Below are positions 11,202-23,092 of a stretch of 64,000 bases of DNA, in pieces. The stretch comes from Paracoccus ravus (GTDB lineage Bacteria > Pseudomonadota > Alphaproteobacteria > Rhodobacterales > Rhodobacteraceae). Every line of letters starts with the position of its first letter. Positions within the stretch are counted from its first letter, which is position 1. A model generated the notes under the pieces. It was given only the letters and a program-made list of their open reading frames with translations, ran no database searches and was not told where the DNA came from. A program made the translations under genes and the position numbers. The DNA lies in NCBI RefSeq assembly GCF_004522175.1, contig NZ_SDEB01000012.1, positions 1-64,000 on the forward strand, written 5' to 3'.

Positions 11202-11804
11202 ATGGCCTCTGGCCCCAGCGACAATATCGAGGCGCTGATCACGACAATGGCACGCCTGCCGGGGCTTGGCCCCCGTTCGGCGCGCCGCATCGTGCTGCAT
11301 TTGATCCGCAAGCGCGCGGGTCAGATGGCGCAGCTTGCGACGCTGATGTCGGGGGTCGCGGATTCTGCCCGCGAATGCCTGACCTGCGGCAATGTCACGC
11401 AATCCGAGATCTGCCCGATCTGTCAGGACCCCGCCCGCGCCACCGGTGAGATTTGTGTCGTGACCGATGTCGCCGATCTCTGGGCGCTGGAGCGGGGCCG
11501 CGCCTTCAAGGGCCGCTACCATGTCCTCGGCGGCAGCCTGTCCGCGCTGGATGAAATCGGCCCCGAGGATTTGCGCATCCCGCAACTCATTGCCCGCATC
11601 ACGGACGAAAGCGCCACCGAGGTGATCCTTGCCCTTTCGGCCACGATCGAGGGCCAGACCACCGCCCATTACATCGCCGAAGCCTTGGAAACGACCGGCG
11701 TTACCGTCACCGGTCTTGCCCAAGGCGTCCCGATCGGCGGGGAACTCGACTATCTCGACGACGGCACCATCACCGCCGCGCTCCGCGCCCGCCGCCGTAT
11801 CTGA
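11202..11804 (+). CDS. recR: Recombination mediator RecR
   Basis: 200 aa, full length. An N-terminal helix-hairpin-helix ([17 protein letters not shown]) is followed by a C4 zinc finger (CLTC...CPIC, about residues 60-75) and a Toprim domain ([16 protein letters not shown]). It works with RecF/RecO to load RecA on gapped DNA. It is the last gene of the dnaX unit; the repeat hairpin at 11841-11888 follows. Confidence 0.97.
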
Positions 11805-11840
11805 ATCGGAAAGGGCGCGGCCACGGCCGCACCCAGGTTC

Positions 11841-11888
11841 TTTCTTGCATAAATATCCCGCGGGGGTCCGGGGGCGCGAAGCCCCCGG
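11841..11888 (+). repeat. Intergenic repeat with hairpin, copy 1
   Basis: This 48-bp unit begins TTTCTTGCATAAATATCCCG and ends in a perfect 8-bp hairpin, CCGGGGGC-GCGAA-GCCCCCGG (11868-11888). A second copy lies on the opposite strand at 22543-22590, about 85% identical and with compensatory changes in the stem. It sits between the convergent recR and hsp20 genes, where it may end transcription, although no T tract follows. The unit resembles short palindromic repeats common between Rhodobacteraceae genes. Confidence 0.8.
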
Positions 11889-11896
11889 CTGCGATG

Positions 11897-12343
11897 TCAG
11901 GCGTCTAGCTTCTCGACCGATCTCACTGTTTTCGAGATCGCGATGCGGCGCGGTTTCAGCGCCTCGGGGATCTCGCGGATCAGGTCGATGTTCAGCATCC
12001 CGTCCTCATGGCTCGCACCATCGACGCGGACGTGATCGGCCAGCGTGAAACGGCGCTCAAAGGCGCGGGTGGCGATGCCGCGATGCAGGAAGGTCCGGCC
12101 TTCCTCTTCCGGCGATTTCCGGCCCGAGACGATCACCGCGCCGTCCTTGACCTCGACATTCAGGTCATCGGCACCAAAGCCCGCAACGGCGATCGAGATG
12201 CGATAGGCATTCTCGCCCGTCTTTTCGATATTATAGGGGGGATAGCTCGCGATATCGGCGGACAGAGCACGGTCCATGACATCAGCCATACGGTCGAAAC
12301 CGACCGAGGCACGATAAAGCGGGGTCAGATCAAAGTTGCGCAT
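11897..12343 (-). CDS. Small heat-shock protein, Hsp20/alpha-crystallin family (IbpA-like)
   Basis: 148 aa from the ATG at 12343, which has AAGGA eight bases upstream; an in-frame start at 12370 adds only nine residues. The N-terminus MRNFDLTPLYRASVGFDRM is the IbpA type. The alpha-crystallin domain spans about 32-125, including the IAVAGFGADDLNVEVKDG strand pair. It is an ATP-independent holdase that binds unfolding proteins. A CTTGAAA heat-shock-type promoter element lies about 110 bp upstream. It converges on recR and follows glcF on the same strand. Confidence 0.92.
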   Translation of the reverse strand: MRNFDLTPLYRASVGFDRMADVMDRALSADIASYPPYNIEKTGENAYRISIAVAGFGADDLNVEVKDGAVIVSGRKSPEEEGRTFLHRGIATRAFERRFTLADHVRVDGASHEDGMLNIDLIREIPEALKPRRIAISKTVRSVEKLDA

Positions 12344-12436
12344 TATCGCATCCTTCTTCAAGCGATACAAAGGCTTGCCCCCCTTATCGGGCGGGCAGGT
12401 CCGTCGGCGCCCTCGGGCCCTCCGACAGAGTTTAGC

Positions 12437-12462
12437 TAGGTATGCGCGGGCAACGTTTCAAG
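12437..12462 (-). promoter_or_regulatory. Candidate RpoH (sigma-32) promoter for hsp20
   Basis: On the minus strand CTTGAAA (12462-12456) is followed after a spacer by CATACCTA, resembling the CTTG-N16/17-CxTAT pattern of alphaproteobacterial heat-shock promoters. The -35 overlaps the glcF stop codon. The -10 match is only partial. Confidence 0.4.
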
Positions 12463-13738
12463 CCTCGGCCAAGGCGCGGGGCTTTGGCCCGCCGCTCGCC
12501 CAGTCGAGCAATTCGACCGTATGGACGACCGGCACCCCAGTGCCCGACCCGATCTGCATCATGCAGCCGATATTGCCCGCCGCAATGACCTGAGGCGCGG
12601 TCGCCTCAAGCGTCGCGACCTTGCGGCGCTTCAACTCTCCAGAGAGTTCAGGTTGCAGCAGGTTGTAAGTCCCCGCCGAGCCGCAGCAGAGATGCGGGTT
12701 TTCCGGCTCGACCACGGTAAAGCCCGCGCGCGTCAGCAGGGTTTTCGGCGTGGTCTTGATCTGCTGGCCATGCTGCAACGAACAGGCCGAGTGATAGGCC
12801 ACGCGCAGCCCCTCGCCCTGCCCCTCGGGCAGGCCGTGACGGTCGAAGAACTCGGTCACGTCACGGGTCAGGCGCGCGACCCGCTCGGCCTCGGGCTGCA
12901 TCGGATCGCCCGCGAAGATCTTGCCGTAATCCTTGATCGTCGTGCCGCAGCCCGAGGTATTGATGATGATCGCGTCCAACTCCCCGGCGGCAAGGAAGCT
13001 GCGGATCGTGGCGCGGGCCGAATGCAGGGCCTCTTCCTCGCGGCCCATGTGATGGGTCAGAGCGCCGCAACAACCGAAGCTTTCGGGGATCACCACCTCG
13101 CAGCCCGCGCGGCGCAGCAGGCGGATCGTCGCGTCGTTAATATCGGTGTTCAGCGCCCTTTGCGCGCAGCCGGGCATCATCGCGACGCGCGCCCGCCTCT
13201 CGCCGATGGGCGCAAAGACCTGCCCCTGATCGTTGCGACTGACCGAGGGGATCTGTTTCGGCGCCATCTCCAGCATCGCCCGCAGCCGCGCGTCGGGCAT
13301 CAGGCGCGCAAAGGGTCGCGCGATCTTGGCGCCCAGCAGCGCCAACCGAAAGCGGCCCTGATAGGGCAGCACTTTCGCCAGCATCCAGCGCAAAGCGCGA
13401 TCCTGCCACGGGCGGCGATAGGTCTTTTCGACATGGATGCGGGCATGGTCGATCAGGTGCATGTAATCGACGCCCGAGGGGCAGGTAGACATGCAACTCA
13501 GACACCCCAGACAGCGGTCCAGATGCTTGACGGTCTTTTCATCGGCATCGCGCCCGCTTTCGAGCATATCCTTGATCAGGTAGATCCGCCCCCTCGGGCT
13601 GTCGAGTTCGTCCCCCAGCACCTGATAGGTCGGGCAGGTCGCCGTGCAAAAGCCGCAATGGACGCAGGCGCGCAGGATCTTGTTCGAGCGCGCGACCAGC
13701 GGGTCTTGCAACTGCTCTTCGGTGAAGTTCGTCTGCAT
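12458..13738 (-). CDS. glcF: Glycolate oxidase iron-sulfur subunit
   Basis: 426 aa. Two 4Fe-4S ferredoxin motifs are present at the N-terminus (CVHCGFCTATCP and CLGCLSCMSTCP). Two CCG domains follow, with FGCCGALTHHMG and LCCGSAGTYNLL. It carries electrons from the flavoprotein subunits GlcD/GlcE to the quinone pool when glycolate is oxidised to glyoxylate. It is the last gene of glcDEF, with a 6-bp gap after glcE. Confidence 0.95.
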   Translation of the reverse strand: MQTNFTEEQLQDPLVARSNKILRACVHCGFCTATCPTYQVLGDELDSPRGRIYLIKDMLESGRDADEKTVKHLDRCLGCLSCMSTCPSGVDYMHLIDHARIHVEKTYRRPWQDRALRWMLAKVLPYQGRFRLALLGAKIARPFARLMPDARLRAMLEMAPKQIPSVSRNDQGQVFAPIGERRARVAMMPGCAQRALNTDINDATIRLLRRAGCEVVIPESFGCCGALTHHMGREEEALHSARATIRSFLAAGELDAIIINTSGCGTTIKDYGKIFAGDPMQPEAERVARLTRDVTEFFDRHGLPEGQGEGLRVAYHSACSLQHGQQIKTTPKTLLTRAGFTVVEPENPHLCCGSAGTYNLLQPELSGELKRRKVATLEATAPQVIAAGNIGCMMQIGSGTGVPVVHTVELLDWASGGPKPRALAEA

Positions 13739-13744
13739 GAAATC

Positions 13745-14773
13745 CTAGCTGGCAAAGATCCGGCGAGGGTCGAACCGCTCGCCAATGCTGGCATTGAGCC
13801 GCGCCACGACGGGGCTTGGCGCGGGAAGGGTCATCGCCTCGGCTCCGGTCACGCGGGTCGCATGACCCGACCACGCGGGCAGGTTCGGAACCTCTCCTGC
13901 GGGCAGCGCGACCCAGATCAGGCTGCCGCCCCAATCGACCGACAAGGGCTGCGGCAGGGTGGCCAGCAGCGCAGAGGCCTCGGAAGGACGACAGACGATC
14001 CGCCACAGATCGCCCTCGGGGGTAGTCGGGACCAGCCGCGACCAGCTTGCGCCGTCGCCCTCGGCTGCTTCGCCGAAAGCCGACAGCCGCTCGGTCAGGG
14101 CGCGGCTGCGGATGGCGACAGAGCCTTCCAAACCCTCGATCCGGATCAGCGCGCCCTGCCCCGGCAGCCACGCTGCGCCGGACACATCGTAAGGCCCGGT
14201 CAGCGCCGAGGTCAGCGCCTCAATCGCCGCCGAGGCATCGACTCCCGGCAGCGCCAAGGTCGCGGAACAGGGTGGCATGGGCGCGGTTTTCAGCGCGACC
14301 TCGGTCAGGACGCCCAAGCGGCCCCGCGATCCGGCCATCAACTTCACGAGATCGTAGCCGGTGACGTTCTTCATCACCCGCCCGCCATTCTTGACGACCT
14401 CGCCCTGCCCGTTGACATAGCGCACCCCGATCAGTGCATCGCGGCAAGCGCCGACCTGCACCCGTCGCGGACCCGAGGCATTGGCGGCAACCACGCCACC
14501 GATGGTCGAACCGGGGCGGGCGTCAGGCTCAAAACCCAGCATCTGCCCCTCGGCGGCCAGCGTGGCCTGCACCTCGGCCAAGGGCGTTCCCGCCCGCACC
14601 ACCAGCGTCAGCGCGGCGGGTTCATAGAGCACCACCCCGCGCAGACCCGAGACGTTCAGCCGCTCGCCCGTCCCTTCGCCCGGCAGCAAGCGCGTGCCGC
14701 CACCGATGGGCGACAACGGGGCGCGGGCCGATCGGATCAGCTGACAGACGTCATCTTCGGATTCAGGCCGCAT
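13745..14773 (-). CDS. glcE: Glycolate oxidase FAD-binding subunit
   Basis: 342 aa with one PCMH-type FAD-binding domain (IGGGTRLLPGEG near residue 22, GGVVAANASGPRRVQVG near 92-108). It lacks the long C-terminal FAD-oxidase domain of GlcD, as is normal for GlcE. It forms the glycolate dehydrogenase complex with GlcD and GlcF. Its start overlaps the end of glcD by 11 bp, indicating translational coupling. Confidence 0.93.
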   Translation of the reverse strand: MRPESEDDVCQLIRSARAPLSPIGGGTRLLPGEGTGERLNVSGLRGVVLYEPAALTLVVRAGTPLAEVQATLAAEGQMLGFEPDARPGSTIGGVVAANASGPRRVQVGACRDALIGVRYVNGQGEVVKNGGRVMKNVTGYDLVKLMAGSRGRLGVLTEVALKTAPMPPCSATLALPGVDASAAIEALTSALTGPYDVSGAAWLPGQGALIRIEGLEGSVAIRSRALTERLSAFGEAAEGDGASWSRLVPTTPEGDLWRIVCRPSEASALLATLPQPLSVDWGGSLIWVALPAGEVPNLPAWSGHATRVTGAEAMTLPAPSPVVARLNASIGERFDPRRIFAS

Positions 14774-16208
14774 TGCGGATACCCTCGCGGCGAGAGGCCG
14801 AGACGGCCAGCGGAAAGACCTTGGCCGCGTTCAACAGCCATTGCGGATCGAAAGCGTCCTTGACCCGCATCTGCGCCTCAAGGTCGATCTCGTTGAATTG
14901 GGTGGACATCAGCTCACGCTTCTCGACGCCGACGCCATGTTCGCCGGTCAGGCAGCCGCCGACCTCGACGCAGAGCTTGAGGATTTCGGCCCCCAAAGCC
15001 TCGCAGCGTTCCAGATCGCCGGGCTTGTTGGCATTATAAAGGATCAGCGGGTGCATATTGCCGTCGCCGGCATGGAAGACATTGGCGACTTCCAGCCCGA
15101 ACTCGCCCGAAAGCCGAGCAATGCCCGCCAGGACCTGCGGCAAGGTGCTGACCGGGATCGTCCCGTCCAGACACATGTAATCGTTGATCTGCCCCATCGC
15201 GCCAAAGGCCGATTTCCGGCCCAGCCAGATGCGGCGGGATTCGTCCTCGGACTGGCTTTCGCGGAACTCAATCGGCTCGAAACGTGCGGCGATGTCGCGG
15301 ATCAGGGCCAATTGCTCGTCGATCTCGGGGGGCGTGCCCTCGACTTCGATGATCAGCAATGCCTCGCAATCGGGGTAACCGGCATGAGCAAAGGCCTCGG
15401 TCGCCCGGATACAGGGGCGGTCCATGAACTCGATGGCGACGGGCAGAACGCCCGCGCGGATGATCGCCGCGACACAGGCCCCTGCGGTTTCCGAGGCGTC
15501 GAAGGCCACCAGAACGGGCCGGGCGCCCACGGGCTTGGGCAGGATGCGCAAACTCGCCTCGGTCACGATGCCAAGCTGGCCCTCGGACCCGCAAACCACA
15601 CCCAGCAGGTCCAAGCCCGGCGCTTCGCCCATCGGGCCACCCAGTTCGACGACCTCACCATCCATCAAGACGACTGTCACGCCCAGCAGGTTATTGGTGG
15701 TGACGCCATATTTCAGGCAATGCGCGCCGCCGGAATTCATACCGATATTGCCGCCAATCGCGCAGGCAAGCTGACTCGACGGATCGGGGGCATAGAAAAA
15801 CCCCTTGGCATCCACCGCGCCCGAGACGGACAGGTTCGTCCGCCCCGCCTGCACGCGGATGAACCGGTCATTATAATCGGTTTCCAGCACCGCATTCATG
15901 CGGGACAAACCGACGATCACCGCATCCGCCGTGGGCATCGAGCCGCCCGCAAGGCTGGTCCCCGCGCCGCGCGGCACAACTGGGACGCCCTCGTCGTGGC
16001 AGATGCGCAGGACAGCCGAAACCTCGGCAGTCGTTGCCGGCAAAACCACCGCCAAAGGCGGGCAGCGATAGGCGGAAAGCGCGTCACATTCATAGGCCCG
16101 CGTCTCGGCCGGATCGTCGATCACGGCAGTGGGAACGGCCTGACGCAGCTTTGCGGCAATGCTGGCGCGCCGCGCGATAATGCGCGGATCGGGAGAAGGC
16201 ATCTGCAT
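14763..16208 (-). CDS. glcD: Glycolate oxidase subunit D (FAD-linked)
   Basis: About 481 aa from the ATG at 16208, which follows GGGGGA by four bases. The open frame extends 74 codons further upstream, but that part is low-quality sequence with no ribosome site. The FAD-binding PCMH domain shows VVPRGAGTSLAGGSMP and GGNIGMNSGGAHCLKYGVT. The C-terminal domain has FHAGDGNMHPLI and GGCLTGEHGVGVEKRELM, the signature of GlcD and D-lactate dehydrogenases. It catalyses oxidation of glycolate (possibly also D-lactate) to the 2-oxoacid. It is first in glcDEF and diverges from the DUF599 gene. Confidence 0.95.
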   Translation of the reverse strand: MQMPSPDPRIIARRASIAAKLRQAVPTAVIDDPAETRAYECDALSAYRCPPLAVVLPATTAEVSAVLRICHDEGVPVVPRGAGTSLAGGSMPTADAVIVGLSRMNAVLETDYNDRFIRVQAGRTNLSVSGAVDAKGFFYAPDPSSQLACAIGGNIGMNSGGAHCLKYGVTTNNLLGVTVVLMDGEVVELGGPMGEAPGLDLLGVVCGSEGQLGIVTEASLRILPKPVGARPVLVAFDASETAGACVAAIIRAGVLPVAIEFMDRPCIRATEAFAHAGYPDCEALLIIEVEGTPPEIDEQLALIRDIAARFEPIEFRESQSEDESRRIWLGRKSAFGAMGQINDYMCLDGTIPVSTLPQVLAGIARLSGEFGLEVANVFHAGDGNMHPLILYNANKPGDLERCEALGAEILKLCVEVGGCLTGEHGVGVEKRELMSTQFNEIDLEAQMRVKDAFDPQWLLNAAKVFPLAVSASRREGIRNAA

Positions 16209-16335
16209 CAGATCCCCCCAACCGTGATGACACGGAATGCAGCCATTGCATCCTCCAAGGCAAAGACGACTTGACTTGATTAGCCCCGAGGCCAGTCTCT
16301 GGCAACCACAGAGCCGCAGCGATAATGAGCGTCGC

Positions 16336-17034
16336 ATGGAAAACACCCTGATCCCCGGCCCCTTCACCACCGCCGACGCCGCCGCCGTCGTCTGGCTGTT
16401 CTTCACATGGTATGCGGTGGGCTGGTTCACCGAGCACCCGCCAAAGGGCTATCCTTCGGTTTCGGTGCTGATGAAGGAATATCGCCGCGAATGGATGCGG
16501 CAATTCGTGACCCGCGATCCACGCATTTTCGACGGCAATATCCTGTCCTCATTGCGCGAGGGGACGGCGTTTTTCGCCTCGGCCTGCATGATCGCGATTG
16601 GCGGCGGCCTCGCGCTGATCGGCAATACCGATCAGCTTGCGGGCGTCGCGCGGCAATTCGATCTCGAACACGCCCCGGCGCTGAAATGGGAAATCAAGAT
16701 CGTCATCGCGCTGTTCTTTGTTGCGAACGCGCTCTTGCGCTTCATCTGGTCGCACCGGCTGTTCGGCTATTGCGCGATCATGATGGCGGCGGTCCCGAAC
16801 AAGTCCGACGATCCCCATGCCCTGCCCCGCGCCATGCAGGCGGCCGAGATAAATATCACCGCCGCCAAAAGCTTCAATTCGGGCCTGCGCTGCGTTTACT
16901 TCGCCTTAGGGGCCTTGGGATGGCTCGCCGGACCGCTCTGGCTCTTCATCGCGACCTCGACGGTTCTGGCCATGACCATCCGGAGGGAATGGGCCTCAGG
17001 CTCGCGCCGGGTAATCCTCGAACGCCTGCCCTGA
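16336..17034 (+). CDS. DUF599 family integral membrane protein
   Basis: 232 aa with four likely membrane segments: AAVVWLFFTWYAVGW, FFASACMIAIGGGLALIG, IKIVIALFFVANALLRFIW and a C-terminal pair around LGALGWLAGPLWLFIATSTVLAM. The family is widespread in proteobacteria and functionally unknown. The ATG at 16336 was preferred over the upstream in-frame start at 16237 because the extra residues look non-coding. The 3' end overlaps the convergent MFS gene by 39 bp, an unusually long tail-to-tail overlap. Confidence 0.85.
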   Translation: MENTLIPGPFTTADAAAVVWLFFTWYAVGWFTEHPPKGYPSVSVLMKEYRREWMRQFVTRDPRIFDGNILSSLREGTAFFASACMIAIGGGLALIGNTDQLAGVARQFDLEHAPALKWEIKIVIALFFVANALLRFIWSHRLFGYCAIMMAAVPNKSDDPHALPRAMQAAEINITAAKSFNSGLRCVYFALGALGWLAGPLWLFIATSTVLAMTIRREWASGSRRVILERLP

Positions 17035-18210
17035 GGCGCGCGCTTGCCACCAAGCAATGGCCAGCATCACCATGCCCGCAAGCGACAAGCCGACACCGAC
17101 CAGCCCCGAGCTACTCCAGCCCCAGCCCGCAGCCAGAGCCATGCCCGCAAGCCAAGGCCCCAACGCGTTCGCGGCGTTGAAGGCTGCGTGGTTCATCGCG
17201 GCGGCCATGGATTGCGCCTCTCCGGCGACCTCCATCAGGCGGGTCTGCAAGGGCACGGCCATGGAGGCACCGACGCCCACGATGAAGGACGAGGCGATCA
17301 TCAGGATCCAGTTCCCGACCGCCAGCGAGGCGAGCCCTTGGGTCAGCGCCATGAAGACCATCAGCACGAAAGCCGCCTTGAACTCGCCCAGCCGGATCGT
17401 CAGCTTGGCGGCGATGATGCTGCCCAAGGTCATGCCGACGCCGAAGGCCGAAAGCAGCGCCGCCACGGCCCATGAGGGCGGGTTCGTCGTCGCCAGCATC
17501 GCGGCGGAAAGATAGGAATAGACGGCGAAGACACCGCCGCAGCCAACCGCGCCGACGGCCAGCGTCAGCATCACGGCGGGGTTCTTCAGCGCCTTGAGTT
17601 CGGCCATTGGGTTGGCCTTGGCATTCGCGCCAACGCGCGGCGCGAGGCGCAGGATCAGCCAGCCTGCGATCAGCGCCAGAACACCCGGCAGCGCAAAGCC
17701 CCAGCGCCAGCCCATGCCCTGCCCCAGCACGCCCGCCAAAGGTACACCCGCGATATTGGCGATGGTCAGACCCAGCAAGACCTGCGTGACGCCCTTGGCG
17801 CGCTGCTCCTTGGGCAGAGCATCGGCGGCAAACAGCATCGCGACGCCCAAATAACCGCCATGCGGCAGACCGGCGAGGAAACGCGTGAAGACCAGCGTGC
17901 CATAGCCCGGCAGCACCGCCGCCAGCAGGTTCATCACGCCATAGACCGCGATCAGCGCCGCCAGATAGCGCCGACGCGGCAGCCGCGCCCCGATAATCGA
18001 GGTGATCGGCGCCCCCACGACCACGCCAAGCGCATAGGCGCTGATGACATGGCCCGCCTGCGGCTCGGTAATGGCCAGATCGCTCGCATACCAAGGCAGC
18101 AAGCCCATCGCCGCGAATTCCGAGGTGCCGATGGCAAAGGAGCCCAGCCCAAGGGCAAGGATGGCAAGTTTCAGGTTCGGCTGGGGCGGCATCGCGTCAC
18201 ATTCCGGCAT
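16996..18210 (-). CDS. MFS transporter, AraJ/YdhP-like drug/sugar exporter type
   Basis: 404 aa with 12 hydrophobic segments. The cytoplasmic loop after helix 2 contains GARLPRRRYLAAL (the G-x-R-x-R-R MFS motif A). The N-terminus LAILALGLGSFAIGTSEFAAMGLLP is the conserved start of the AraJ/YdhP/PbuE exporter group; the substrate is unknown. The start may be the ATG at 18210 or 18192. A perfect 12-bp palindrome lies 11 bp upstream of the first. Its tail overlaps the DUF599 gene by 39 bp. Confidence 0.87.
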   Translation of the reverse strand: MPECDAMPPQPNLKLAILALGLGSFAIGTSEFAAMGLLPWYASDLAITEPQAGHVISAYALGVVVGAPITSIIGARLPRRRYLAALIAVYGVMNLLAAVLPGYGTLVFTRFLAGLPHGGYLGVAMLFAADALPKEQRAKGVTQVLLGLTIANIAGVPLAGVLGQGMGWRWGFALPGVLALIAGWLILRLAPRVGANAKANPMAELKALKNPAVMLTLAVGAVGCGGVFAVYSYLSAAMLATTNPPSWAVAALLSAFGVGMTLGSIIAAKLTIRLGEFKAAFVLMVFMALTQGLASLAVGNWILMIASSFIVGVGASMAVPLQTRLMEVAGEAQSMAAAMNHAAFNAANALGPWLAGMALAAGWGWSSSGLVGVGLSLAGMVMLAIAWWQARASGQAFEDYPARA

Positions 18211-18221
18211 TTGAGGGGATT

Positions 18222-18233
18222 AACGTATACGTT
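18222..18233 (-). promoter_or_regulatory. Palindromic operator candidate upstream of the MFS gene
   Basis: AACGTATACGTT is a perfect 12-bp palindrome 11 bp before the first MFS start codon, within the likely promoter or leader. Its position suggests a repressor site. No regulator gene is adjacent, so the cognate protein is unknown. Confidence 0.5.
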
Positions 18234-18305
18234 GGCGATAACAGAATCGCCCTGCCCCCGTCTTCACCCGCCCAAGACAGGCCCGCCATGCGCTACGCGC
18301 AAGGC

Positions 18306-19088
18306 TTACTCAGCCCAATTGGGTTTTCTCTTTTCAAAGAACGCGTTGATACCTTCTTGTGCTTCCGCGCCTTCCCAGACGCGGACGAGCGCGTCGATGG
18401 TTGCTTCGATCACATCAGCGTCGATGCGGGGTCCGAGGCTGCGGGTCAGGCGCTTGGCCTCGGCCACCGCGCCCGGGGCGCAGGCGAGATAGGGCGCGAC
18501 CTCGGCCTCGATCGCGGCGTCAAGGATATCGGTGTCGGCGAGACCGGCAAGCAGATCCAGCCGCACCGCCTCGTCGGCGCTGAAGAGCCGCGCGGACATG
18601 AAGACGCGGCGCGCCTTGCCCTCGCCCAGCCGCGCGATGACATAGGGGCCGATGGTGGCGGGGATCAGACCAAGCCGGGTCTCGGTCAGGCCGAAGCGGG
18701 CCTCCGGGACCGCCACGGCCACGTCGCAGACCGAGATCATGCCGAGGCCGCCGCCGAAGGCATTGCCCTGCACCCTCCCGATCAGCGGTTTCGGCAGCGT
18801 GTTCAGCGCCTGCAGCATCAGCGCCAACTCCCGCGCCCCGGCGCGGCGGGTCGCGGCGTCCGCCGCCATCTGCGCCTGCATCCAGCCCAGATCGCCCCCG
18901 GCGCAGAAGCTTTTGCCCTCGGCGGCCAGCACCACGACGCGCACGGCGGGGTCAGCGCCCAGGCGGCCGGCGGCCTCGGTCAGCTCGGCGATCATCTGAG
19001 CGGAAAGCGCATTGTGCTTCTCGGGCCGCGCCAGCCACAGATGGGCCAAGCCGCGCGCGTCGGTTTCAATGCGGATCGTTTCCATCAT
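18306..19088 (-). CDS. liuC: Methylglutaconyl-CoA hydratase (enoyl-CoA hydratase family)
   Basis: 260 aa crotonase. GKSFCAGGDLGWM (about residues 88-100) and GNAFGGGLGMISVCDVAVA (about 130-148) form the oxyanion hole; GLIPATIGPYV follows. By position in the leucine operon it hydrates 3-methylglutaconyl-CoA to HMG-CoA; sequence alone shows only the superfamily. It overlaps the end of mvaB by 4 bp (ATGA) and is the last gene of the operon. Confidence 0.88.
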   Translation of the reverse strand: MMETIRIETDARGLAHLWLARPEKHNALSAQMIAELTEAAGRLGADPAVRVVVLAAEGKSFCAGGDLGWMQAQMAADAATRRAGARELALMLQALNTLPKPLIGRVQGNAFGGGLGMISVCDVAVAVPEARFGLTETRLGLIPATIGPYVIARLGEGKARRVFMSARLFSADEAVRLDLLAGLADTDILDAAIEAEVAPYLACAPGAVAEAKRLTRSLGPRIDADVIEATIDALVRVWEGAEAQEGINAFFEKRKPNWAE

Positions 19089-19942
19089 GCACCTCCTGCC
19101 CGAAGCGCGCGGGCGAATTCGGCAGCTTCAGTGATCACCGCCGGGTCAATCCCCGTCTCATAGCCCCGCGCGGCAAGATGCGCGGCAACGGCCTCGGTCG
19201 CGACATTGCCCCGTGCACCCGGCGCATAGGGACAGCCACCAAGCCCGCCGACGGCGGCGTCAAAGACCCGCAGCCCGCGCGCAAGGCTTGCGTCGATATT
19301 CTGCAACGCCCGGCCCGCCGTGTCGTGGAAATGCCCGGCCAGCCTGTCGGGCGGCAATTCGTCCAGAACAGCCGACAGCATCGCATCCACCGTCTCGGGG
19401 CGTCCCTGCCCGATCGTGTCGCCAAGGCTGACCTCGTAACAGCCCAGATCGCGCAGGGCGGCCACGACGCGGGCAACATTCCCGGGCGGCACCGGCCCGT
19501 CGAAGGGGCAATCCGTCACCACCGAGACATAGCCGCGCATGGGGATACCATCGGCCCGCGCGGCTTCGGCCAAAGGCGCGAAGCGTTCGAGGCTTTCGGC
19601 GATGGTCGCGTTCAGGTTCGCGCGTGAAAAACCCTCCGAGGCCGAGGCGAAGACCGCGACCTCATCCGCCCGCGCGGCGCGCGCCGCCTCGTAGCCCTTC
19701 ACATTCGGGGTCAGCACGGCGTAGCTCACGCCCGGTGCGCGGCTGATGCCCGCCATGACCTCGGCCGCATCGGCCAGTTGCGGCACCCATTTCGGGCTGA
19801 CAAAGCTCGTGACCTCGATGCGGCGGAACCCGGCGCGAGACAGCATGTCCACCAGCGCGATCTTGTCGGCAGCGGGGATCAGGCGCCTTTCGTTCTGTAG
19901 CCCGTCGCGTGGGCTCATTTCAAATATTTCAGCGCGTTGCAT
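19085..19942 (-). CDS. mvaB: Hydroxymethylglutaryl-CoA lyase
   Basis: 285 aa TIM barrel. The N-terminal metal and substrate site is EMSPRDGLQNE (residues 7-17). SLGDTIGQGRP and GHFHDTAGRALQN hold further metal ligands. GLGGCPYAPGARGNVATE carries the catalytic cysteine of the HMG-CoA lyase signature. It splits HMG-CoA into acetyl-CoA and acetoacetate, the final step of leucine degradation. Its start overlaps the preceding GST gene by 14 bp and its stop overlaps liuC by 4 bp, so expression is coupled on both sides. Confidence 0.95.
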   Translation of the reverse strand: MQRAEIFEMSPRDGLQNERRLIPAADKIALVDMLSRAGFRRIEVTSFVSPKWVPQLADAAEVMAGISRAPGVSYAVLTPNVKGYEAARAARADEVAVFASASEGFSRANLNATIAESLERFAPLAEAARADGIPMRGYVSVVTDCPFDGPVPPGNVARVVAALRDLGCYEVSLGDTIGQGRPETVDAMLSAVLDELPPDRLAGHFHDTAGRALQNIDASLARGLRVFDAAVGGLGGCPYAPGARGNVATEAVAAHLAARGYETGIDPAVITEAAEFARALRAGGA

Positions 19943-20600
19943 CGGGAAGCTCGTAAAAGTCGCGTTGATAGATCACCGGGGTTCCGGGCGCGGGTAGCGC
20001 CGCCTGAAACGCAGGGCGAGCGGCACAGCGGGCGGCATAAGCCGCAAGCGCCGGGCGGTCGTTGAGGCGCACGAAGCGCCCCGCGATCCAGACCGAATAG
20101 CCGACCTGACAATCGACGGCCGAGAATTTGCTCAGCAGCCAGTCCGAATTCTCGACATGCCTTTCGACCAGCGTCAGCGCGCGAGAGAGCCGCGCGGCTT
20201 CAAGCTTCATCACCGTCTGCGAGCGCTGCGAAGGCTCGCGCAGGAAGACATGCGATTGCGTCAGGTTCGCGACATGCTGGGCGAGGGTCTCGCCGAAATG
20301 CAGCCAGTCGAGCCATGCCAGCCGTCCCGCCTCGCCCGGCGCACGGCCCAGATGCGGCGCGCGGGTCTCGCACAGCCATTCGGTCATCGCCCCGGATTCG
20401 TGGATCACCACCGTCCCATCGCGCAGCGCGGGCACCCGGCCGACCGGATGGATCGCGTCATAGGGCGGTCGCCGCATCGAGCCATCGGTCATGCTCATCT
20501 CGACCAGATCGAATTCGCAGCCGATCTCGTGGAGCAGCCACAGGATCCGCATCGAGCGCGACAGCGGCACATGCCAGAGCGTCAGGTCAGGCATCGACAT
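19929..20600 (-). CDS. Glutathione S-transferase family protein in the leucine operon
   Basis: 223 aa. The thioredoxin-like N-terminus LTLWHVPLSRSMRILWLLHEIG ends in the usual cis-proline turn (GRVPALRDG) and the ESGAMTEWL glutathione-contact motif. An all-helical C-terminal domain follows, with the family N-capping region DCQVGYSVWIAGRF. The gene overlaps mccA upstream by 14 bp and mvaB downstream by 14 bp, so it is clearly part of this operon although no GST step is known in leucine degradation. It may scavenge reactive enoyl-CoA or aldehyde by-products; that role is inference. Confidence 0.88.
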   Translation of the reverse strand: MSMPDLTLWHVPLSRSMRILWLLHEIGCEFDLVEMSMTDGSMRRPPYDAIHPVGRVPALRDGTVVIHESGAMTEWLCETRAPHLGRAPGEAGRLAWLDWLHFGETLAQHVANLTQSHVFLREPSQRSQTVMKLEAARLSRALTLVERHVENSDWLLSKFSAVDCQVGYSVWIAGRFVRLNDRPALAAYAARCAARPAFQAALPAPGTPVIYQRDFYELPDATR

Positions 20601-22515
20601 CCTCTTCCAGCCGGATCAGCGCCGCGCCGGCCTCGACCTGATCGCCGGGCTGCGCCAGCACCTCGGCCACGCGCCCGTCGCGGGCGGCGGTCAGGCTGTG
20701 CTCCATCTTCATCGCCTCGAGGATCGCCAGCCGGTCGCCCGCCGCGACCTCCTGCCCGGGCGTGACGAAGACCGCCTTGACCAACCCCGGCATGGGCGAC
20801 AGCGTCAGCCCGCCGCCGACCTCATCTCCGCCACGCGCCAGCGGATCGAGCGGCACAAGGGTCAGCGAGCGCCCGCCGAAGACGCTGGTCCCGGCGGCAT
20901 GGCTCACGATGCGCGAACGCCGCGGCTTTCCATCGACCCACCAGCGCCCGCCCTCATGCCGGATCTCATGCGCGACGCCTTGCAACGTGACCCGGGCCGC
21001 TCCGGGGCCAAGGACCTCCAGCATCGCCTCGCCGCTCTCCCAAGAAATCGTCCGGCGCAAGGGCTGCCACAGGGTGATGCCGCCCCGGACCAGCGGATCG
21101 GCTAGCCCCGCCAGGCCCAGCACCGCTAATACCCGCGTCGCGGGATCGGGTTCCGAGGCCTCGGTCAGCGCGGCGAGGTCGCGGGCGATCAACCCGGTAT
21201 CGACCTCGCCTTGGCCGAAGCCCTCATGCCGGGTCAGCGCGATCAGGAAGTCGAGATTGGTGACCGAGCCCGCCACCTCGGTATCGCAAAGCGCTGCCTC
21301 CAAGGCGCGCAGCGCGATGGCGCGGGTCGCGCCATGCGTCACCACCTTCGCGATCATCGGGTCGTACCACGGGCTGATCGCATCCCCCGGACGCACGCCA
21401 GACTCGATGCGGGCCGCCGCGGGGAATTGCAGATGTGCCAGCGTGCCCGTCGCCGGCAGGAAGCCTGCCGGCACGTCCTCGGCGTAAAGCCGCGCCTCGA
21501 AAGCATGGCCCGAGATGCGCAGTTCCTCCTGCCGCGCGGGCAAGGGCTCGCCGCTCGCCACGCGCAGCTGCCATTCGACGAGATCGACGCCGGTGATCGC
21601 CTCGGTCACCGGATGCTCGACCTGCAGGCGGGTATTCATCTCCATGAACCAGAAGCCGTCCGGGCGCAGGCCGCGGCTGCCATCGACGATGAATTCGATG
21701 GTGCCGGCGCCGGAATAGCCAATGGTCTCGGCGGCGCGCACGGCGGCGGCGCCCATGGCGGCGCGCATCTCGGGCGTCATGCCGGGCGCCGGGGCTTCCT
21801 CGATCACCTTCTGGTGGCGGCGCTGGAGCGAGCAGTCGCGCTCGAAGAGGTGCACCGCGCGGCTGCCGTCGCCGAAGACCTGGACCTCGATATGGCGGGG
21901 CCGTTGGATGTATTTCTCGATCAGCACGGCGGGGTTGCCGAAAGCGGTCAGGGCCTCGCCCTGCGCCGAGGCGAGCGCATCGGCGAAATCGCCCGGCCGT
22001 TCGACCATCCGCATGCCCTTGCCGCCGCCGCCCGCCACCGCCTTGATGAGCACCGGATAGCCGATCGCCCCGGCCTGCGCGGCCAGGTGCCCGGGGTCCT
22101 GCTCCGCCCCGTGATAGCCCGGCACGACCGGGACGCCGGCCTCTTCCATCAGCGCCTTGGCCGAATCCTTGAGGCCCATTTTGCGGATCGCCTCGGCAGA
22201 GGGGCCGATGAAGACCAGCCCCGCCGCCCTGACCACATCGACGAAGTCGGGGTTCTCGCTGAGGAACCCATAGCCCGGATGGATTGCCTGCGCGCCGGTC
22301 TCCTTCGCCGCGGCGATGATGGCATCGCCCCGCAGATAGCTGTCGCGGGGCGCAGGGCCACCGATATGCACCGCCTCATCGGCCATGGCGACATGGCGGC
22401 TGGCGCGGTCGGCATCGGAATAAACCGCGACCGTGCGCACACCCAGGCGGCGGGCAGTGTCGATGACGCGGCAGGCGATCTCGCCACGATTGGCGATCAG
22501 GATCTTCTGGAACAT
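20587..22515 (-). CDS. mccA: Methylcrotonyl-CoA carboxylase biotin-containing alpha subunit
   Basis: 642 aa. The biotin carboxylase part (1-450) has the ATP-grasp loop GGGGKGMRMV, KYIQRPRHIEVQVFGDG and EMNTRLQVEHPVTE. A C-terminal biotinyl domain ends with EAMKMEHSL, where the lysine carries biotin. It carboxylates 3-methylcrotonyl-CoA together with mccB. Sequence alone does not separate it from propionyl-CoA carboxylase; the operon context (ivd, mvaB, liuC) does. It is separated from mccB by the macrodomain gene and repeat copy 2. The start ATG is at 22515. Confidence 0.93.
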   Translation of the reverse strand: MFQKILIANRGEIACRVIDTARRLGVRTVAVYSDADRASRHVAMADEAVHIGGPAPRDSYLRGDAIIAAAKETGAQAIHPGYGFLSENPDFVDVVRAAGLVFIGPSAEAIRKMGLKDSAKALMEEAGVPVVPGYHGAEQDPGHLAAQAGAIGYPVLIKAVAGGGGKGMRMVERPGDFADALASAQGEALTAFGNPAVLIEKYIQRPRHIEVQVFGDGSRAVHLFERDCSLQRRHQKVIEEAPAPGMTPEMRAAMGAAAVRAAETIGYSGAGTIEFIVDGSRGLRPDGFWFMEMNTRLQVEHPVTEAITGVDLVEWQLRVASGEPLPARQEELRISGHAFEARLYAEDVPAGFLPATGTLAHLQFPAAARIESGVRPGDAISPWYDPMIAKVVTHGATRAIALRALEAALCDTEVAGSVTNLDFLIALTRHEGFGQGEVDTGLIARDLAALTEASEPDPATRVLAVLGLAGLADPLVRGGITLWQPLRRTISWESGEAMLEVLGPGAARVTLQGVAHEIRHEGGRWWVDGKPRRSRIVSHAAGTSVFGGRSLTLVPLDPLARGGDEVGGGLTLSPMPGLVKAVFVTPGQEVAAGDRLAILEAMKMEHSLTAARDGRVAEVLAQPGDQVEAGAALIRLEEDVDA

Positions 22516-22542
22516 GCGGCGGCTCTTCTGGAGAGGGAGGCG

Positions 22543-22590
22543 GCGGGGGTTTCACACCCCCGCACCCCCGTGGGATATTTGGGCAAGAAA
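22543..22590 (-). repeat. Intergenic repeat with hairpin, copy 2 (inside the leucine operon)
   Basis: On the minus strand it begins TTTCTTGCCCAAATATCCCA and ends GCGGGGGT-GTGAA-ACCCCCGC (22563-22543), an 8-bp hairpin. Compared with copy 1 at 11841, the first stem pair is G-C instead of C-G and the last is T-A instead of C-G, so the pairing is kept. It lies between the macrodomain gene stop (22595) and the mccA start (22515), inside one operon, so it cannot be a simple end-of-operon signal. Confidence 0.82.
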
Positions 22591-22594
22591 GAAC

Positions 22595-23092
22595 TCATCC
22601 GCACGCCTCGGCAAGAATACGGGCGGTGGCGGCGTCATAGGCGACCAAGGTCACGGCGAGGTTCTCGCGAAAAGCGCGAATGCTTCGCACCGCGATCCGA
22701 GCCGCGCGATCCGCAGGGAAACCATAGATCCCGGTCGAAATGGCGGGAAAGGCAATGCTTGACAGGCTATGGTCAAGGGCGAGCGTCAGTGCATTGCGGT
22801 AACAGGCCGCGAGGAGATCATCCTCGCCCAGCGCCCCGCCGCGCCAGACCGGGCCGACGGCATGGATGACATGGCGGGCGGGCAGGTCATGGCCAAGGGT
22901 GATGCGGGCTTCGCCCGTCGGGCAGCCGCCAAGCTTGCGGCATTCTGCGATGAGGCCCGGCCCCGCCGCGCGATGGATCGCGCCATCGACCCCGCCACCG
23001 CCCAGAAGCGTCCGGTTCGCGGCATTGACGATGGCATCCAGCGCGAGGGTGGTGATGTCGCCTTGCCAGATGGTGATCGGCTGCGCGGCCAT
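22595..23092 (-). CDS. Macrodomain protein (O-acetyl-ADP-ribose deacetylase-like)
   Basis: 165 aa, a stand-alone macrodomain of the MacroD/YmdB type. [22 protein letters not shown] (about residues 17-38) contains the catalytic Asn and Asp and the ADP-ribose phosphate loop. [10 protein letters not shown] and [12 protein letters not shown] complete the pocket. Such enzymes hydrolyse O-acetyl-ADP-ribose or remove mono-ADP-ribose from proteins. It sits 3 nt after mccB and before mccA, embedded in the leucine operon. A link to deacylation chemistry and acyl-CoA flux is a reasonable inference. Confidence 0.93.

Follow-up and report, generated by a model that had tools for sequence, protein, structure and literature searches.

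A dispersed two-part hairpin and box element of Rhodobacteraceae with a possible role at gene ends

Two copies of a short hairpin-bearing sequence lie on opposite strands of a 64,000-nucleotide stretch of Paracoccus ravus DNA (contig NZ_SDEB01000012.1, positions 1 to 64,000; the window). What kind of element is repeated here, and what might it do at the places where it stands? An initial annotation had treated 11841-22590 as a repeat family with compensatory hairpin changes; the copies were found at the two ends of this span, as separate units and not as a single feature. Their identity, given as about 85% of 48 positions, was 40 of 48 (83%). Within the full 53-nucleotide unit, the copies differ at eight positions, two of which fall in a free triplet (NNN). 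The remaining six make up three compensated pairs, corresponding to columns 2:22, 9:15, and 13:30 of an alignment (A2) described below. The two compensated stem pairs noticed earlier are both real. The third had been missed; it pairs a base of the hairpin loop with one 3' of the hairpin (G:C in copy 1, A:T in copy 2). The hairpin–box unit is well supported as a dispersed, constrained family. The data show its anatomy, its covariation, its placement, its spread through the family, and boxes that differ by species; its function, namely action on RNA, reading by a factor, and a part in forming 3' boundaries, we infer.

The unit and its family

Read hairpin first, the unit consists of a G-run of 4-7 nucleotides (G1), a loop, a C-run (C1), about 3 nucleotides or a second hairpin, a second C-run (C2) matching the first in length, a linker (K, mostly 1-4 nucleotides), GGRTATTT, three free bases, and a box. 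In a second form, CTCCGGCGGG stands before RTATTT. Copy 1 occupies 11837..11889 on the minus strand (covariance model 72.7 bits, expectation value (E) 2.8e-20 in the window), and copy 2 occupies 22542..22594 on the plus strand (72.5 bits, E 3.2e-20). Hairpin A, read from the sequence and from the covarying pairs of A2, is built in copy 1 (11868..11888, minus strand) from the 5' arm CCGGGGGC (11888-11881), the loop (11880-11876), and the 3' arm GCCCCCGG (11875-11868). In copy 2 (22543..22563, plus strand), the loop is flanked by GCGGGGGT and ACCCCCGC. The second C-run and linker follow at 11859..11866 (minus strand) and 22565..22572 (plus strand). The C-run at 11866-11862 is followed by GCG (11861-11859), complementary to CGC in the loop (11878-11876), and that at 22565-22569 by GTG (22570-22572), complementary to CAC (22553-22555). 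Each copy ends with GGATATTT, a free triplet, and the box CAAGAAAG (11840..11858, minus strand, triplet ATG; 22573..22591, plus strand, triplet GGG).

The word GGATATTTNNNCAAGAAAG had 21 exact matches in the 4.2-Mb genome, including the two in the window; one mismatch admits another place, and two mismatches one more. Against the reversed control, this amounts to 22 versus 0 matches at up to one mismatch and 23 versus 3 at up to two. All 21 exact copies share 16 fixed bases, in agreement with the conserved part TTTCTTGC..AAATATCCC of the annotation, and by our own count they carry 15 different free triplets.

A covariance-model search had been proposed as a check on the repeat family. The model was built from 27 of a set of 135 copies, both window copies included, with hairpin A as the sole structure; matches were counted at E up to 0.01, with the best 150 candidates scored per genome. 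Below E 0.01, the window held the two copies only, and the P. ravus genome held 28. Eleven other Rhodobacteraceae gave 3 (genome G206), 65, 102, 42, 53, 91, 49, 53, 51, 13 (G003), and 1 (G038) copies, and four other alphaproteobacteria gave 1, 0, 0, and 0. Further copies and covariation were thus both found, and the family proposed earlier stands.

Pattern searches outlined the wider spread. The first-form pattern matched in 78 of 198 genomes of the family, with up to 89 matches per genome (reversed control: 1 match in 8 genomes), and the second-form pattern in 62 of 198, with up to 71 per genome (control: 0). Among 289 genomes of the class, 22 matched the first-form pattern by our own counts, 20 of which do not belong to the family and have one or two matches each; the reversed control matched in 9. 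Outside the family, among the places listed, the whole anatomy was apparent only in G404, the sole place whose upstream side was inspected. Rfam 15 gave no match at the gathering score in the window, and around copy 1 only three weak, unrelated matches up to E 10. The search of the window for tRNA and transfer-messenger RNA genes found none. The open-licence literature searched held no description of the element, which is not proof of its absence in print. An element present in tens of copies per Rhodobacteraceae genome, at the ends of housekeeping genes, thus appears to be undescribed.

Covariation between loop and linker

The set of 135 copies was obtained from 144 found by script, less 7 with linkers lacking a final GG and 2 duplicates. 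It includes related copies, and the shuffle figures are accordingly not probabilities; the count that takes each loop–linker combination once is the conservative figure. In 123 of the 135 copies, the linker was complementary to one or more bases of the loop, against a mean of 88.7 and a maximum of 100 in 2000 shuffles, or 99.5 and 109 when shuffled within equal lengths. For linkers of at least 2 nucleotides, 48 of 60 were complementary (shuffle mean 24.8, maximum 34). Counted once per combination, 32 of 44 fit, against 21.2 after shuffling (maximum 27). Where a 5-nucleotide loop was combined with a 1-nucleotide linker, the middle loop base and the linker formed C-G 47 times and T-A 19 times, with no exception. 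Fitting examples are TTTCACA-GTG, CTTCGCG-GCG, CTTTGCG-GCA, TTTTCCA-GGA, CTGTCTG-GA, CTGTTTG-AA, CTTTG-A, and CTCTG-G; the 12 copies without a fit include CTTAACG-GTG, CTGTCCG-GC, and CTTTG-TCA. C1 and C2 were equal in length in 121 of 135 copies (shuffle mean 59, maximum 78).

Alignment A2 comprises 15 of the 135 copies and models the pseudoknot explicitly. In it, 99.4% of cells were paired, and the covariation score was 0.384, as compared with 0.146 for shuffled and at most 0.114 for slid alignments. The numbers of paired cells and of cells changed on both sides, as well as the covariation score, were above all 500 of 500 shuffles. Loop bases complementary to a downstream strand, together with covariation, characterize an H-type pseudoknot, and both are present here. 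From the sequence, C2 running beside G1 would fit an H-type pseudoknot with a C-rich loop as well as a C.G-C triple helix, and the data do not choose between them. A main hairpin formed by G1 and C2 was rejected: for the window copies, blocking C1 cost 8.4 and 6.4 kcal/mol, and G1:C1 pairing is preferred. At L037 (genome copy C12:234662), a second G-run/C-run hairpin without its own box lies 36 nucleotides upstream of a complete element, forming a tandem hairpin.

These features bear on whether the copies are ordinary intrinsic terminators that share sequence by descent. A GC hairpin directly after a stop codon, a weakly T-containing stretch downstream of it, and a conventional terminator that is sometimes adjacent (by eye) would suit such an origin. 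An intrinsic terminator, however, has its U-run immediately after the hairpin. Here, a C-run and linker stand between the hairpin and ATATTT, and A2 has 11 nucleotides between stem and RTATTT in 15 of 15 rows, with no U-run. The loop–linker covariation, the putative tertiary contact, the species-specific box 3 nucleotides beyond, and a scarcity of G.U pairs relative to terminators (see below) also separate the two. We consider plain terminators very unlikely, in line with the earlier view that the unit is more than a terminator.

Placement at genes and relation to known repeats

The annotation had read the unit box first. Placement relative to genes, assessed with crude gene calls, favors the opposite direction. 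From 137 copies, 15 inside a called open reading frame and 4 without a usable left gene were excluded. In 89 of the remaining 118, the hairpin comes first, 3' of a gene's stop codon, and in 29 it faces a gene start. The stop-side to start-side ratio was 42:10 for the long first form, 34:16 for the short first form, and 13:3 for the second form; nine copies lie between two gene starts. Plasmid stretches contributed 13 named places, 3 of them without annotation. Of the 10 with annotation, 4 stand at a gene end with the hairpin first, 5 have the reversed orientation, and 1 is flanked by divergent genes.

Copy 1 follows an hsp20-family gene (11897..12343, minus strand; PF00011, gene call), whose stop codon is 8 nucleotides from hairpin A. 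On its box side lies the convergent neighbor recR (11202..11804, plus strand; TIGR00615, above cut-off). Copy 2 shows the reversed kind of placement: its hairpin side faces the start of a biotin-carboxylase gene (5' part read, 21073..22515, minus strand; PF00289, PF02785, PF02786), and its box side faces the 3' end of a macro-domain gene (22595..23092, minus strand; PF01661). Elsewhere in P. ravus, hairpin-side neighbors include hslV (followed by hslU), serC (followed by serA), fabD (followed by a fabG-like short-chain dehydrogenase/reductase gene), and the genes of ribonucleotide reductase, phosphoenolpyruvate carboxykinase, and an RNB-domain ribonuclease, besides hsp20.

Two of these sites were followed through the genus. 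Between hslV and hslU, the unit holds its position in 21 of 30 Paracoccus loci (retained from 61 genomes, P. ravus included), and the boxes differ. Of 24 loci with hsp20 after recR, 17 keep the unit by script and 20 by eye, again with differing boxes; AGTATTT cores escape the script, which accounts for the difference. At hslV-hslU in seven Paracoccus loci (L316-L320, L322, L323), we noticed by eye that the free triplet and first box bases can pair with a downstream stretch. Such a hairpin (NNNC..GNNN) was seen at this site in several species and in a few copies of the P. ravus genome; most copies lack it. At L035 and L044, a conventional hairpin and T-run directly follow the box, the A-rich box serving as an upstream A-tract (by eye). 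Inverted element pairs that face each other occur at L031/L032, L038/L039, and L250, with about 20 nucleotides between the boxes and the two boxes forming a palindrome; the two members at L250 share one unusual box.

As a palindromic stem-loop repeated outside genes, the element resembles repetitive extragenic palindromic (REP) sequences, for which GTAG and CGTC super-families are set out in part of one study (PMC3733652). Both are short, dispersed, sometimes arranged in inverted pairs, and often downstream of genes. Unlike REPs, the present element has a loop–linker contact, a box 3 nucleotides beyond GGRTATTT, and few G.T pairs, whereas the same portion of that source notes GT pairing as often observed in GTAG REP stems. 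A RAYT-type (REP-associated tyrosine) transposase had been suggested as a partner. This suggestion was not borne out: none of 16 genomes, some of them rich in the element, had Y1_Tnp (PF01797), which was detected in 5 of 14 control genomes. A GTAG/CGTC-type tetranucleotide within 8 nucleotides of the hairpin foot, on either strand, was present in only 12 of 135 copies (CGTC 9, GACG 2, GTAG 1). The element is REP-like in habit but fails REP's two defining marks, the tetranucleotide and the RAYT.

A REP-like or miniature inverted-repeat (MITE-like) unit, mobile now or in the past and spread by a transposase other than RAYT, would explain the dispersed copies, the inverted pairs, the variable copy number (1 to 102), and the versions that differ among genomes. 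It accords poorly with the lack of Y1_Tnp in those 16 genomes, with the retention of orthologous sites throughout the genus under changing boxes, and with triplets, loops, and second hairpins that vary between copies although the box is fixed. The viral contigs searched had no match to one Paracoccus-type pattern. We regard a mobile origin as unlikely.

DNA uptake sequences of Neisseria and Haemophilus are short words present in hundreds to thousands of copies. A translocation or uptake tag of this kind, with species versions that mark self DNA, would account for a short species-specific word that is often paired and inverted at convergent gene ends, in the manner of the uptake-sequence dialects of Neisseriaceae. 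The 1 to 102 model matches in 12 Rhodobacteraceae genomes are, however, far below the counts of uptake sequences, one half of the present element is structured and kept, and a functional link was not found. We consider this explanation highly improbable.

An intercistronic stabilising hairpin of the puf operon was reportedly described by Klug in 1987. The likeness lies in the position between neighboring genes and in the 3'-end protection proposed for both. In 30 loci scanned, not each of which was confirmed to reach the pufA-pufL gap, the region upstream of the reaction-centre genes held no such element. At locus L346, a second-form copy lies near the downstream end.

Box variation and a possible function

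The box is close to uniform in P. ravus (CAAGAAAG). G208 has CACAAAA in 31 of 37 places, and G051 has CCAGAATGAA in 14 of the 15 best-scoring copies read. Among the places listed for G243, by our own counts, 44 of 49 with ATATTT have CAAGAAA, and 16 of 16 with GTATTT have a different box (Fisher p 3e-11); the A of RTATTT accompanies CAAGAAAG and the G other boxes. Two box classes that follow the R of RTATTT suggest two readers in this genome. G132, in contrast, is not uniform: all 20 second-form places listed have one box, and 4 of the 5 first-form copies that were read have another. In G206, among the closest relatives by the hslV-hslU and recR-hsp20 loci, the box is lost at the hsp20 site, the hslV-hslU site is degenerate, and the model finds 3 matches, as compared with 28 in P. 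ravus. This pattern looks like decay after the loss of a reader, since few and broken copies are what such a loss would leave.

With these results in hand, our preferred though tentative reading, built on sequence comparison, is a structured gene-end element of two modules, lying mostly in 3' untranslated regions, the right half of which would be read by one or more lineage-specific factors, and which may fix where the upstream message ends at its 3' side. The left module, a GC hairpin with an equal-length second C-run whose linker touches the loop in a pseudoknot or triple-helix closure, would form a very stable plug right after the stop codon. For the right module, GGRTATTT-NNN-box, the proposed readers are one or a few trans-acting factors specific to the lineage, with proteins as the likeliest candidates. 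Together, the modules would define the 3' boundary by stopping RNA polymerase or, alternatively, by cutting at the A/U-rich step, after which the plug would block 3'-5' decay. The same role could apply between same-strand neighbors such as hslV-hslU, serC-serA, and fabD-fabG. Part of one study (PMC6238624) reports AU-enriched RNase E sites in Rhodobacter sphaeroides, and RUAUUU would suit such sites.

Several observations weigh against this proposal. No long U-run follows the hairpin. Of the 118 copies placed, 29 have the opposite orientation, as have 5 of the 10 annotated plasmid places (three of these 5 being the same hydantoinase site). In A2, the number of pairs changed on both sides was reached by 20 of 500 shuffles, and that of further pair types by 499 of 500. 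The boxes are also uniform only to a limited degree: in G203, CCAAGATGA was found in 9 of 15 copies read and CGAAAGAGAA in 2. By our own reading, twelve Paracoccus genomes were readable at both hslV-hslU and recR-hsp20, and only 3 of them (G000, G229, G255) had the same box at both sites. Four differed in the box and in the R of RTATTT (G201, G235, G253, G254), and five in the box with the same core (G202, G203, G220, G221, G239). G255 combines a single box with both cores, which speaks against a strict rule, as does the difference between the two sites in 9 of the 12 genomes. A box near-uniform in most genomes was thus not borne out at these two sites, and several words can share one genome.

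The remaining objection concerns the nucleic acid itself. The script forces the G- and C-runs, stem A included, and the G.U figures therefore concern the second hairpin. Second hairpins (n=33) had 2 G.T and 5 A.C among 284 pairs, whereas terminator-like hairpins of the same loci (n=64) had 36 G.T and 12 A.C among 625; the scarcity of G.T was significant (Fisher p=1.2e-4). Such a near-lack of G.U is not what a plain RNA stem would show, and it points toward DNA. The main rival is a DNA-level role, in which a hairpin or triplex would form in DNA that is single-stranded or extruded, and a DNA-binding protein would have its site in the box and be active in chromosome organisation, replication, or recombination, with gene ends as the places of least harm. 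In the first-form copies that were read, C2 is indeed made of C, which a triple helix would require (in the set found by script, stem A and C2 had been selected as runs), reversed copies occur, and the conserved halves lie 11 bp apart, about one helical turn. Other evidence favors RNA. The orientation relative to the gene is biased (89:29). Four of five odd loop–linker pairs noticed by eye are G.T in the sense strand (L101, L241, L422, L427), the fifth being A.C (L426). Among 59 second hairpins, folding is slightly favored for sense over antisense RNA (27 better, 12 worse, and 20 equal). A role in DNA seems possible but doubtful. The REP/RAYT, plain-terminator, and uptake-tag explanations are less likely than either the gene-end or the DNA-level reading.

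For the family as a whole, the gene-end proposal leads to a broader and more doubtful claim: Rhodobacteraceae may have a dedicated two-part marking of gene ends, in which a pseudoknot or triplex plug is combined with a word whose readers, one or a few factors, evolve fast. A change of word would then shift many orthologous sites, and loss of the factor, perhaps in G206, would lead to genome-wide decay. The family includes well-studied bacteria (Rhodobacter, Paracoccus, and the Roseobacter group). Genomes that have lost the element offer a clear path, by comparison, to the missing factor. Should a factor read the box, the element would be a natural experiment in the replacement of a recognition word across many sites, and could lead to a new mechanism by which mRNA 3' ends are made or protected.

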